Notes under the pieces: generated by a model | What the model saw: only the letters and a program-made list of their open reading frames with translations | Databases searched by the model: none | What the model was told of the DNA's origin: nothing | Assembly (NCBI RefSeq): GCF_030695525.1 | Contig: NZ_JAUYSS010000054.1 | Coordinates: 1 to 64,000, forward strand | Direction of reading: 5' to 3' | From: Daejeonella sp. | Lineage (GTDB): Bacteria; Bacteroidota; Bacteroidia; Sphingobacteriales; Sphingobacteriaceae | Length of the DNA stretch: 64,000 bases | Part shown: positions 11,744 through 20,343 of the stretch, piece after piece | Numbering within the stretch: position 1 is the stretch's first letter | How the letters are laid out: the number at the start of each line of letters is the position of its first letter | Program-made: the position numbers and the translations under genes

Positions 11744-11899
11744 ATCTGTTAAAACCATTGAGCTCAATTCAAACTCCATTCCCAATTTGCTAATCACTGT
11801 TGTCCGGTAAAAATAAAATGTTTAAAAATATCCTTGTAAAAAGTATTGTGAACGATTTTATTTCCTGATTTCAAAAAGCAAGCCCCGCTGTTAGCGCAC

Positions 11900-12129
11900 T
11901 CGCTCAATAGGCCCCGCTTTTAAGCGGGGTATACAAGGGGGATATTCCGGGCTTCAGCCCAAAATAATCCGTTTATACCGGAACACCCCCATCGGGCTTC
12001 AGCCCGATTAAATGTTGTCGGCGCTGAAGCACCGGTTTACGTTATTTTCTAACCTGCTATATGTGGGGCTGAAGCCCGAATTGAATCACTCCGATTACAA
12101 CCCGCCTGAAGGCGGGCCCTATTGAGCGA
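11900..12129. mobile_element. Palindrome island with 12-bp terminal inverted repeats (candidate non-autonomous REP element)
   Basis: A 230-bp block bounded by perfect inverted 12-mers, TCGCTCAATAGG (11900-11911) and CCTATTGAGCGA (12118-12129). Inside are six palindromes: CCCCGCTT/AAGCGGGG (11912-11929), GGGCTTCAGCCC (11949-11960), ATCGGGCT/AGCCCGAT (11991-12008), CGGCGCTGAAGCACCG (12019-12034), GGGCTGAAGCCC (12066-12077) and CCCGCCT/AGGCGGG (12101-12116). The 16-mer at 12019 is the exact reverse complement of the palindrome at 18444-18459 beside the transposase gene. The 11-bp end motif also recurs at 19112 and 19311. The block has no ORF, so mobilisation would be in trans. That it moves is inference. 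Confidence 0.7.
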
Positions 12130-12391
12130 TACTTCTATACCCGAGATTAAAATAATTCAATCATTAAGAAAATACCCTCTTTCCTAAATATGGCAAGAGT
12201 TTCAATTCTGCTGCCGGGCTAAACCTTAATAAAAACTTTCCCCGGACACTAGTAATTTGCTAATTATCTCAATTTGCTAATTGCTATCCCTCATTTACTA
12301 ACCCGATAGCAATCGGGTTGCGAATTAGCTTTAATCGTAATTCCATTGTAACATTTCATCCGATTTGAAACATTTTAAAGAAATTAACGTC
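12130..12391. other. Spacer before the DUF4834 gene
   Basis: AT-rich sequence with a degenerate octamer run (about 12245-12298) and a hairpin AACCCGAT/ATCGGGTT (12300-12319, loop AGCA) like the one at 3386. No gene was seen. Confidence 0.6.
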
Positions 12392-17593: not shown

Positions 17594-18340
17594 ATGGGAA
17601 ATCAATTAACCGACAGGCAGTTTTGGACATACTATTGGGAATCTAAACCCGATCTGGCTATTCAGATCAACAAGGATTACCTATTTCACCAGCAACTGGA
17701 AGAAATAGTTAAAACAAATAATGTTCAGACGGCTATTGAACTGGGCGGATTTCCGGGATATTATTCCATCTTCCTGCACAAATACCTGGGGGTAAAAACC
17801 ACTCTTTTCGATTATTTTATTCATCCCGATATTTTAAGAAAGGTACTAAACAAAAATGGTCTGGATGAAAGTGATATTCCGGTTATTGAGAATGATGTAT
17901 TTCAATATCAGCCTGAACAAAAATATGATCTGGTTCTATCCTGCGGTTTGATTGAGCATTTTAAGGATACCAAAGATATTATTGAACGGCATCTTGAATT
18001 TTTAAAGCCGGGGGGTACTTTATTCATTACCCTTCCTAATTTCAGAGGTGTGAATGGCTGGGTTCAAAAGACTTTCGACAGAGATAATTACAATAAACAC
18101 TATATCGAATGCATGGATACCGAATATCTTGCAACGATACTGGAAGAACTTGGCCTGAAATCCATAAAATCCTTATACTTTGGCAGATACAGTGTTTGGC
18201 TGGAAAACAAAGATCAAAAATCAGGAATGACCAAAGCATTTATCAAGACCATTTGGTTCATTGGAAAGGTAGCTACTACCCTGATACCTCTTGAATCAAA
18301 ATTCTTATCACCTTACATCGTTCTGGAGGCAAAGAAATAA
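17594..18340 (+). CDS. Class I SAM-dependent methyltransferase
   Basis: A 248-residue protein with a Rossmann methyltransferase core: motif I AIELGGFPGYYS (around 50), an acidic residue after TTLFDYF, YDLVLSCGLIEHFKD (motif IV) and LKPGGTLFITLPN (post-motif). The C-terminal 60 residues include a hydrophobic patch (AFIKTIWFIGKVATTLI) that could touch the membrane. Location among glycosyltransferases suggests methylation of a glycan or lipid-linked sugar, by inference. It is read alone on the plus strand and ends just before the RAYT left repeat. Confidence 0.82.
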   Translation: MGNQLTDRQFWTYYWESKPDLAIQINKDYLFHQQLEEIVKTNNVQTAIELGGFPGYYSIFLHKYLGVKTTLFDYFIHPDILRKVLNKNGLDESDIPVIENDVFQYQPEQKYDLVLSCGLIEHFKDTKDIIERHLEFLKPGGTLFITLPNFRGVNGWVQKTFDRDNYNKHYIECMDTEYLATILEELGLKSIKSLYFGRYSVWLENKDQKSGMTKAFIKTIWFIGKVATTLIPLESKFLSPYIVLEAKK

Positions 18341-18354
18341 ATGGGATAATTTTA

Positions 18355-18467
18355 AATAGCCCGGTGCTTTAGCTCCGGGCGAAAATCCGGTTTTCAGATC
18401 GGGCTTTAGCCCAAAACCTAAGAGACATGAACGGAACAAATAGCGGTGCTTCAGCGCCGAAATGCCG
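18355..18467. repeat. RAYT-flanking palindrome module, left copy (113 bp)
   Basis: Contains three palindromes: arms GCCCGG/CCGGGC around TGCTTTAGCT (18359-18380), GGGCTTTAGCCC (18401-18412) and CGGTGCTTCAGCGCCG (18444-18459). By hand alignment it matches the right copy at 19317-19429 over exactly 113 positions with about 12 mismatches, in the same orientation. Confidence 0.85.
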
Positions 18468-18549
18468 TTAAATAACCTCAATCTACCATTCCTTAACCCG
18501 AATTTTTATTATTCCAAAACTTTCGAATATTGTAGTCTAAATACCTGCA

Positions 18550-19002
18550 ATGTCATTTATAAAAATAATTATCCATTGTGTATGGAGCACAAAAAATCGA
18601 ATTCCATTTTTAAAATCATCGGAATTCCGGAATGAACTTTGGGATCACATTCGTCACAATTCGAAAAAGAAGAATATCTATATAGATACCATAAACGGAT
18701 ATGATGACCATTGCCATTGTCTCATTTCTCTGAAAAGCGATCAATGTATAAAGGATGTTCTGCAACTTATCAAAGGGGAATCTTCGAGATGGATAAACCT
18801 GAGAGGGGGATTTAACAATTCGTTTGCAGCAAAATTTGAATGGCAGGATGAATACCTGGCAATTTCTGTTTCTGAATCCAATTTAGCAATGGTAAGAGAA
18901 TACATTAAAAATCAGGAAATGCATCATAAGAAAAAATCATATGAAGAAGAATATAAGGCTTTTATTGAAAAACTAGGATTCAATCAAATCAGAGTAGATT
19001 AA
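18550..19002 (+). CDS. REP-associated tyrosine transposase (RAYT, Y1/IS200-like HUH nuclease)
   Basis: A 150-residue single-strand DNA transposase of the Y1_Tnp family. The metal-binding HUH pair is His54 and His56 (DDHCHCLISL), preceded by the N-terminal strand FIKIIIHCVWSTKNR. The WQDEYLAISVS segment leads to helix VREYIKNQEMHH, where Tyr118 is the predicted nucleophile and Gln122 a cofactor-site residue. All key residues are present and the length is full, so it looks functional. There is no TnpB partner. It sits between REP-like palindromes on both sides, as RAYT genes do, rather than in IS200-type ends. No -7 box was found; transcription may be weak or come from upstream. Confidence 0.9.
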   Translation: MSFIKIIIHCVWSTKNRIPFLKSSEFRNELWDHIRHNSKKKNIYIDTINGYDDHCHCLISLKSDQCIKDVLQLIKGESSRWINLRGGFNNSFAAKFEWQDEYLAISVSESNLAMVREYIKNQEMHHKKKSYEEEYKAFIEKLGFNQIRVD

Positions 19003-19012
19003 TGTTATATCT

Positions 19013-19122
19013 ATCGGGCTAAAGCCCAATGTAATTTTCCTCACATGTTGCAGAATATTGGGCTGAAGCCCGAAAACGAACAATCTCATTGACCCCAGCT
19101 AAAGCTGGAGCCTATTGAGCGA
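19013..19122. repeat. Palindrome cluster downstream of the RAYT gene
   Basis: Three palindromes in the opposite orientation to the left module: GGGCTAAAGCCC (19016-19027), GGGCTGAAGCCC (19060-19071) and CCAGCTAAAGCTGG (19095-19108). It ends with CCTATTGAGCGA (19111-19122), the same 12-mer that ends the island at 12118-12129. Confidence 0.8.
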
Positions 19123-19310
19123 CCGTACTGGTCATGCCATTAATATAAGGAACATATCGAAATGCTAAGGTGGCCAAAATAATGGCAGTTTACTTGTTAC
19201 GATGAAAGGATGAAATTATTGAAACTTTATCCGTCAATTATTGAGCGAGAAGACACTTGATTACGGGTGAAATGTTTGAATAAAAAATACCGGGGATTGG
19301 GCTAGCCATA
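19123..19310. other. 188-bp spacer between RAYT palindrome blocks
   Basis: Non-coding sequence without obvious palindromes, enclosed by the inverted 11-mers CTATTGAGCGA (19112-19122) and TCGCTCAATAG (19311-19321). It may be the original intergenic DNA into which two elements inserted. Confidence 0.5.
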
Positions 19311-19316
19311 TCGCTC

Positions 19317-19429
19317 AATAGCCCGGTGCTTTAGCTCCGGGTTAGTATCCGGTTTTCAGACTGGGCTTTAGCCCAAAACCTAAGCGACCAGAACGGAACA
19401 AATACCGGTGCTTCAGCGCCATAATGCCG
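19317..19429. repeat. RAYT-flanking palindrome module, right copy (113 bp)
   Basis: Direct repeat of 18355-18467 with the same three palindromes. Its left edge carries TCGCTCAATAG (19311-19321), the end motif of the island at 11900. It stops 8 bp before the stop codon of the glycosyltransferase gene. Confidence 0.85.
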
Positions 19430-19437
19430 AAAAACAG

Positions 19438-20343
19438 TCAGATCCCTTTTATTTTCTGTTTCGTAAACCGCAATATCCTTTGCCATAAGCTTCCCTTCCG
19501 GGTTTTCAGGAAATCCTTAATTGCCAGATAAGCTTCCTTATTCTCCTCAATTTTTTCTGGAAAAGTTGTTACCGGAACTGGATTAATAATCACATGATAA
19601 ATATCATTTAAACCCGAATGAATTCCAGAGCCGTCATGCCCAATATTATTAATCAGGGATTTTGAAGGATTCAGTGTTAGTCCTCCCTTAAGAAATATTG
19701 AAGCGTACCAGCGTATCGCCCATGAATTATTTCTGCCCCGTTTAAATTCAATAATCTGTTTCCAGAAATTCATAGTACCCTCAATGGAGAATTCAAGTCT
19801 CTTCCTCCTGTCGAACCGGGCAATTATCTTATTAATATCAGGTTCAAAATCTTTCCAGGCTCTTTCCCAGGTTGCCCAACCCCAGCTGGTTGCGGCGCGG
19901 TAAAAAAAGGTTTGTGGTAAGTTTTCAGCATTCAGCGGATACATATAAGCACCAATGTGCATCACCTTTTCTTCGTTCTGATACCGAACCAGGGCATCAT
20001 TAAAATATTGCAGGGTATATGCCGAACTGATCAGATCATCTTCAAATACAATCACTTTACCATATTCAGAAGCCAACATGCTCACCCCGTCAATAATAGA
20101 CTCAGCCAGACCGAAATTAGTTTTCCGTTCAATCAGCTCAACCGATTTAAAGCCATCAACCTGTTTGATAATATCCCTCACTTCATCCACTAACACTTGT
20201 TGTGAGGGATCTTTAGCAGCATCTGAAAAGATAAAAAGCCGGGATTCATCCGCCAGCAAATTTTGCTGTAAAAACTTTATTGTCCGCCTGGTATGCTCCG
20301 GACGGTTATAAACGAATAAAGCTATTGGGGCAAAGTTCTGCAT
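19438..20343 (-). CDS. Glycosyltransferase (GT-A fold, family 2/GNT-I-like)
   Basis: A 301-residue transferase. The start APIALFVYNRPEHTRRTIKFL is a typical GT-A nucleotide-binding strand-helix. NFGLAESIIDGV leads to VIVFEDDLI, with the DxD-like EDD metal site near residue 100. SWGWATWERAWKDF and NNSWAIRWYA are family signatures of acceptor-side segments. It has no membrane helices. It is convergent with the RAYT gene. A heptamer array lies directly at its start codon. Confidence 0.82.
   Translation of the reverse strand: MQNFAPIALFVYNRPEHTRRTIKFLQQNLLADESRLFIFSDAAKDPSQQVLVDEVRDIIKQVDGFKSVELIERKTNFGLAESIIDGVSMLASEYGKVIVFEDDLISSAYTLQYFNDALVRYQNEEKVMHIGAYMYPLNAENLPQTFFYRAATSWGWATWERAWKDFEPDINKIIARFDRRKRLEFSIEGTMNFWKQIIEFKRGRNNSWAIRWYASIFLKGGLTLNPSKSLINNIGHDGSGIHSGLNDIYHVIINPVPVTTFPEKIEENKEAYLAIKDFLKTRKGSLWQRILRFTKQKIKGI

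Follow-up and report, generated by a model that had tools for sequence, protein, structure and literature searches.

A subclass-1.2 type transposase gene between inverted three-hairpin modules as a probable mobile REPtron-like unit in Daejeonella

Introduction

How REP sequences and their RAYT transposases originated from IS200-type transposons is an open question because RAYT genes appear immobile. According to the available text of PMC8266576 and PMC6006769, no REPtron is known to move as a unit, and the accessible part of the former speaks of 'no evidence of tnpAREP mobility'. A locus in Daejeonella sp. raises this question in a concrete form, as the window (the whole stretch of 64,000 nucleotides that was analysed) contains a Y1 transposase gene, tnpA, surrounded by modules of three palindromes each. 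A sequence-only reading had described the gene as a RAYT framed by two direct modules, apparently forming a composite that could duplicate or excise as a unit. The locus thus poses the questions to which class the transposase belongs, which of the repeats could serve as its ends, and whether gene and repeats move together.

Results and discussion

Architecture of the locus

The coordinates of all features are collected in Table 1. Alignment of A with A' gave 104 identical positions out of 118 (88%) and, over the first 113, exactly the 101 that had been counted by hand; the three palindromes announced per module were located in both. The inverted palindrome cluster that had been noticed directly after the gene corresponds to module B, which lies shortly 3' of the tnpA stop codon, contains three palindromes, is inverted relative to A and terminates in CTATTGAGCGA, the inverse of TCGCTCAATAG at the A' edge. 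Within the spacer, part C includes a degenerate copy of an outer TIR-like arm, and part D ends in TATCGCTC adjoining A', the right edge of which is at most 3 nt away from the stop codon of the glycosyltransferase gene. Chance does not explain the module A repeat, since 13 near-full copies were found in the own genome. Compared with dinucleotide shuffles, folding as single-stranded DNA was stronger for A on the given strand (z −2.7) and for B on both strands (z −3.9 and −4.3), and weaker for A' (z −1.3) and for the other strand of A (z −1.5).

Table 1 Features of the tnpA locus and their coordinates in the window.
Feature	Position	Strand	Remarks
Left flanking gene, methyltransferase-like (by eye)	17594..18340	+	Outside the element; synteny marker
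Module A (putative left end)	18355..18472	+	13 near-full copies in own genome; preceded by AATAG
Hairpins of A	A1 18359-18380; A2 18400-18412; A3 18443-18459		
Leader, A to tnpA start codon	18473..18549	+	Remnants retained in some gene-less copies
tnpA	18550..19002	+	150 aa; Y1 HUH transposase, subclass-1.2 type; H54, H56, Y118; YIKNQEMHH
Module B (putative right end)	19009..19122	+	Hairpins B1 19015-19027, B2 19060-19071, B3 19095-19108
Spacer C-D, between B and A'	19123..19316	+	
Second direct module A'	19317..19434	+	Probable chain repetition; hairpins 19321-19341, 19362-19375, 19406-19420
Right flanking gene, glycosyltransferase-like (by eye)	19438..20343	-	Outside the element; synteny marker

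Class of the transposase

The open reading frame of 150 codons carries all three residues (His54, His56 and Tyr118) on which the claim of an intact transposase had been based. Its product matched the Pfam family Y1_Tnp with 94.5 bits against a cut-off of 23 and the NCBIfam IS200/IS605 model NF033573 with 62.5 bits, above the cut-off of 55, and scored 35.5 bits with the NCBIfam model REP_Tyr_transpos (RAYT), below the cut-off of 80. The best solved chain was 2xm3 (E 4e-8, residues 6-123), annotated 'transposase' and presumably representing ISDra2 TnpA, followed by 2a6m, the ISHp608 transposase (E 4e-6). The closest relatives were Daejeonella records.

Three motifs were recognized in the protein, namely DHCH, WQ and YIKNQEMHH. 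The last of these fits the signature Y---Q--HH which the available part of Quentin et al. 2018 (PMC6006769) gives for subclass 1.2, a group of low copy number, while the class 2 (RAYT) Y motifs in the classification table of that source end in NP. The W-Q of subclass 1.2 is also present, and both histidines of the HUH motif are kept, with a middle Cys versus the published DH[IV]H; DHCH was likewise found in the homologs L116-L119, which originate from outside the genus. Length (150 aa versus about 148 aa) and host group (Bacteroidetes or Cyanobacteria) fit as well. Missing are the NP of the class 2 Y motif (YIxxNP type), as the protein reads YIKNQ, and the GT[AG]G foot of RAYT palindromes, A1 and B3 being bounded by AATAG / CTATT. 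A motif survey of 41 loci yielded a match in 37, and Y---Q--HH was present in 35 of these, with the remaining two (L041, L060) being fragments; the four loci without a match (L033-L036) are Y1 genes of the own genome with NP-type motifs. Given the Y---Q--HH signature and the NP ending of class 2 motifs, tnpA is a subclass-1.2 type gene, as judged from motifs and length, and the RAYT name had to be abandoned, ruled out by the motifs and by the family cut-offs.

Five more Y1 genes (L168, L169, L170, L171, L032) were noted in the own genome. Several of them adjoin repeated palindromes of their own, for example the TCCGTAGAG types at the genes on C35 and C32, and these same two genes also have B modules of the window family in their vicinity.

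Recurrence of the unit within the genus

The earlier reading had asked whether the module occurs elsewhere in the genome. The near-full copies of module A (alignments of 102-141 nt, among 42 rows) are dispersed, and module B is present in 10 near-full copies (105-114 nt, among 20 rows). Both recur in A-B arrangements and in A-B-spacer-A chains whose B-spacer-A junctions are alike in sequence. Inverted palindrome pairs that are chained by spacers and dispersed between genes at many sites are features of BIMEs and REPINs, and A-B-spacer-A chaining is the organisation reported for BIMEs in the available text of PMC8266576.

Module A was detected in 10 of the 41 genomes searched, all ten within the genus, and a close tnpA in 5 of the 20 genus genomes. 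All five tnpA-bearing genomes contain module A (at least 14, 2, 2, at least 12 and at least 15 rows, with lower bounds for G000, G009 and G019), as do 5 of the 15 genus genomes lacking this tnpA (5, 3, 2, 1 and 1 rows). Full-length tnpA was found in G000, the own genome, where the window copy is the only intact one, as well as in G004 (with a stop two codons early), G008 and G019:C45, and an internal deletion affects G009:C24. Two genomes harbor decayed copies beside an intact one: G019 carries a frameshifted gene (C57) and a remnant (C26), and G000 has a remnant at C71, where only the last quarter of tnpA is left between A and B. As the copies within one genome are not near-identical (89% for the C71 remnant), their movement was not very recent.

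Overall, tnpA or a remnant of it occupies seven distinct sites in five Daejeonella species, namely the window site (shared with G009:C24), G004:C45, G008:C20, G019:C45, G019:C57, G019:C26 and G000:C71, of which G019:C26 (135 nt) and G000:C71 (114 nt) are 3' remnants. An upstream A is present at all seven; it is full at four, and at the other three it is cut short because the contig ends, foreign DNA is inserted or part of it is deleted. A downstream B is likewise present at all seven.

Gene-less copies were found to derive in part from the same unit, several of them retaining parts of the leader. A deletion junction between leader and B2 is common to C43, its ortholog G019:C62 and C55, and a junction of A3, 16 nt and B1 is common to G000:C61 and G009:C1. 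For the pairs C43-C55 and C61-G009:C1 the element alone aligns, and the similarity sets in 20 and 5 nt ahead of A1, respectively; for the C61 flank, no match outside G000 was obtained among the best 15 candidates scored per genome. Two classes of deletion derivatives therefore recur at non-orthologous sites. A third class was rejected as proof of movement, as G009:C28 and G000:C31 represent one shared site (88% over the element plus 1.2-1.4 kb of one flank).

Six pairwise comparisons among G000, G004, G008 and G019 gave dN values of 0.023-0.040 and dS values of 0.19-0.45 for tnpA, corresponding to a dN/dS of about 0.09-0.16. The synonymous divergence of tnpA is below that of both genes flanking the window copy, a comparison that uses these two genes only (dS 0.46 and 0.53 for G000-G019; not computable for G000-G004, and for G004-G019 2.8 for one gene with no value for the other). 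At the level of identity, tnpA reached 90-94% versus 74-91% for the fetched flanks in the same genome pairs. Among the hairpins, the outermost pair of A3 was standard in 32 of 35 copies (TA 19, CG 7, TG 3, AT 2, GC 1), with all four Watson-Crick forms represented, and that of B3 was standard in only 17 of 24. One further copy of each module, out of 36 for A and 25 for B, showed no hairpin that could be recognised, and the sets include orthologous and IS-interrupted copies and are not independent.

Orthologous sites with and without modules

At the window locus, 9 of the 12 genomes with both flanking genes in one locus were module-free, so that the empty sites between the methyltransferase and glycosyltransferase genes for which the earlier reading had proposed to look exist in nine species; the count omits G017 (genes on separate contigs), G018, G012, G005 and G003 (first gene not found) as well as G006, G008 and G013. 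In four of the nine (G002, G016, G001 and G015) the flanking genes meet with overlapping stop codons or with 4 nt between them (gap −4 to +4 nt), and the other five (G014, G004, G010, G011 and G007) have 198-607 nt of other, module-free sequence. Modules are arranged as A-tnpA-B-C-D-A' in G000, as B-spacer-A-tnpA (with the internal deletion)-B-spacer-A' in G009 and as B-spacer-A' only in G019. Matches to tnpA of 31-34 nt within the glycosyltransferase gene (L098, L153, L155, L162) were counted as chance.

Similar observations were made at the other tnpA sites. The stretches orthologous to G019:C26 were module-free in 6 of 6 cases with both flanks, and those of G019:C45, G019:C57 and G004:C45 in 3 of 3 cases each with one flank only. 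For G008:C20, 3 of 6 were module-free, with a gene-less A-B in G009 and B remnants in G000 and G010, and for C71 2 of 3, the third containing a stretch with faint similarity to B (75%). The gene-less sites differ in age and sharing, from private ones, without modules in any of the orthologous stretches (C55, 0 of 4; C69, 0 of 6), through an intermediate one (C43, 2 of 6) to old, shared ones (C2, 3 of 3; C58, 3 of 4; C66, 2 of 3; C44, 2 of 4). With the closest relatives about 10-12% diverged, comparison of filled and empty sites gave no exact junctions, ends or target.

We consider it probable, on the evidence of sequence comparison, that A-tnpA-B constitutes a mobile unit resembling a REPtron with BIMEs, the hairpin modules of which would be the ends used by a single-strand transposase of subclass 1.2, with A' resulting from chain repetition. 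A Y1 tyrosine-HUH transposase is encoded between two inverted three-hairpin modules, which would act as its ends. By analogy with IS200/IS605 and TnpA_REP (PMC8266576, available text), TnpA is expected to recognise the A and B hairpins on single-stranded DNA, Tyr118 to cut near the outer AATAG / CTATT edges, and the enzyme to move A-tnpA-B as well as, in trans, gene-less A-B units. Such units would be chained as A-B-spacer-A in the manner of BIMEs, and A' would accordingly represent a chained module and not the end of a composite transposon.

Outer arms and a sister family

Some copies feature outer TIR-like arms (TGTCATGTCA... / ...TGACATAACA) bordered by CTAG, TTAG or CTAA (YTAR). Both arms, with CTAG on each side, surround A-B-C in L106 (5685-6100) and L100 (4830-5380), an arrangement that suggests a shell with a YTAR target, and a single arm at TTAG or CTAA was observed on the left in L101 and on the right in L099 and L108. 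These features open an alternative, namely that the arms form a DDE-type MITE shell which moves A-tnpA-B and A-B, with tnpA as a passenger and not the driver. The alternative also draws on the sister family F2 described below, which combines the same six-hairpin core with TIRs, target duplications and an empty site. Against it, the arms are missing or different at other copies (no left arm in G009:C1 and at the first A of C69; B-spacer-A chains), the same core is found within different shells, and insertion at YTAR was not confirmed by an empty site, the L100 flanks being too diverged. The occurrence of the same core in different shells, or without the left arm, gives some preference to the core as the unit that all copies share, and we regard the passenger explanation as rather unlikely.

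Family F2 is represented in the window at 11795-12252 on the minus strand, and its core was found at 14 own-genome loci, many of which lie at contig ends. Its TIRs (TAGTGTCCGG / CCGGACAACA) enclose a six-hairpin core like A-B. Among the five copies with both ends in view, 12-bp target duplications were exact in L018, L027 and L028, contained one mismatch in L019 and were not visible in L017, and G019 provides a clean empty site. F2 is clearly a mobile element with a TIR shell.

The modules themselves appear to have been hit by other elements. In G019, 8 of at least 15 module-A rows begin at module position 13 or 17 (C13, C18, C23, C45, C46, C57, C62, C68), and in those copies that were read a similar foreign end sequence abuts A, as if one IS repeatedly hits the A1 palindrome; foreign sequence at the A edge was also seen in L096 and L099. 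Furthermore, a long ORF that appears by eye to encode a DDE-like transposase (L111, 282-1721) adjoins GGGGCCTA of B3 in C31. The foreign sequence of L111 abuts the same place in an F2 copy (L024, near the low end), which points to a further case of insertion into such palindromes. Several copies (L104, L112, L100, L096, L027 and others) also share an insert of about 25-30 nt, CCCGGATGAACTCCGTTCGGACTGG or its complement, next to the GGGCT..AGCCC palindromes at A2 or B2.

Recombination between modules and composite transposition as less likely alternatives

A further alternative assumes a domesticated REPtron, in which TnpA would spread hairpin modules only and tnpA would be relocated by homologous recombination between modules along with horizontal transfer of larger pieces. 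Known REPtrons are so described in the available text of PMC8266576 and PMC6006769, the modules offer the required homology, and the window locus differs between G000, G009 and G019 by blocks lying between direct B-spacer-A repeats. On the other side, the module-free orthologs of G019:C26 (both flanks) and G019:C57 (one flank) leave no partner for recombination between modules in the relatives examined, and the decayed extra tnpA copies within single genomes (G019, G000) also argue against it, so that this explanation appears quite improbable to us.

The composite element of the sequence-only reading, in which the direct A modules would be the working ends and the stretch between them would be duplicated or excised, finds some footing in A-tnpA-B-spacer-A' of G000 and G009 and in B-spacer-A' at the same place in G019, but is extremely improbable and was discarded, as a complete downstream A' occurs at one of the seven tnpA sites only (the window site, in two species), G004 has a 62-nt piece, and five sites show no downstream A in the stretches fetched. 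At the same time, with only B-spacer-A' present at the window site in G019, A-tnpA-B may plausibly have been gained or lost there as one block. The probable mobile unit remains A-tnpA-B. Defined hairpin modules, copies in decay, derivatives without the gene and module-free sites are all found for this unit, so that gene and repeats seem to be still moving together, and the unit offers a concrete, testable system for the question of REP/RAYT origin.

Hairpins near other subclass-1.2 genes

Subclass 1.2 as described in the available text of PMC6006769 is generally without terminal IS200 structures and without REP, and does not share IS properties. Around 29 other genes of this type, a set without the 8 Daejeonella copies of the window gene but with some remoter genes from Daejeonella, among them one from the own genome, GC-rich hairpins numbered 59 in 14.6 kb of intergenic sequence within 450 bp of the genes (4.0 per kb) versus 17 in 12.5 kb farther out at the same loci (1.4 per kb) and a density of 1.7 per kb in other parts of the window, an approximately threefold enrichment that refers to intergenic sequence only. 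By the criterion used, 11 of the 29 genes had no hairpin in their intergenic flanks. The dispersal of such hairpins was followed for two genes, with one hairpin each and by exact matches only: all three copies of the G038 hairpin lie no more than 1 kb from the gene, and of the five copies of the G012 hairpin two are by the gene and three elsewhere. An association of subclass-1.2 genes with hairpins is therefore likely, but not universal.

At this stage, we tentatively propose that subclass 1.2 might represent a distinct class of mobile REPtrons across Bacteroidota, single-strand transposons whose multi-hairpin, REP-like ends would travel with the gene and seed chained, gene-less, BIME-like derivatives, and whose members could be living intermediates between IS200/IS605 elements and the immobile RAYT/REP systems. 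The Daejeonella unit itself already hints at what this orphan subclass of transposases, set apart from IS elements on the basis of sequence (PMC6006769, available text), may do.

Comparison with known systems

The arrangement found here differs from a standard IS200 element and from a plain RAYT with one REP pair, as had been anticipated. With subclass 1.2 as published, in the available part of PMC6006769, the window unit shares Y---Q--HH, WQ, a length of about 150 aa, the occurrence in Bacteroidetes and few copies per genome; it differs in having hairpin modules and derivatives without the gene, in showing signs of mobility, and in the Cys as middle HUH residue. Among the matches listed for the open-access literature, nothing more recent dealt with subclass 1.2 or with Daejeonella repeats. 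In common with REPtrons (RAYT, that is TnpA_REP of class 2, with BIMEs and REPINs), the gene lies between inverted palindromes which are dispersed, paired and chained by spacers, whereas the window protein is not of class 2, the module edge is AATAG versus GT[AG]G, each end comprises three hairpins, and the gene occurs at different sites. IS200/IS605 elements (subclass 1.1) resemble the unit in their HUH-Y1 transposase, in hairpins near the ends and in the signs of mobility. Unlike in these elements, each end of the window unit comprises three hairpins, in inverted order, the units are chained, gene-less copies are more numerous than gene-bearing ones, and HH follows the Y motif. A parallel for its gene-less derivatives is provided by the PATEs of Haloquadratum, IS200-derived miniature elements which likewise lack the gene and originate from a Y1 element.
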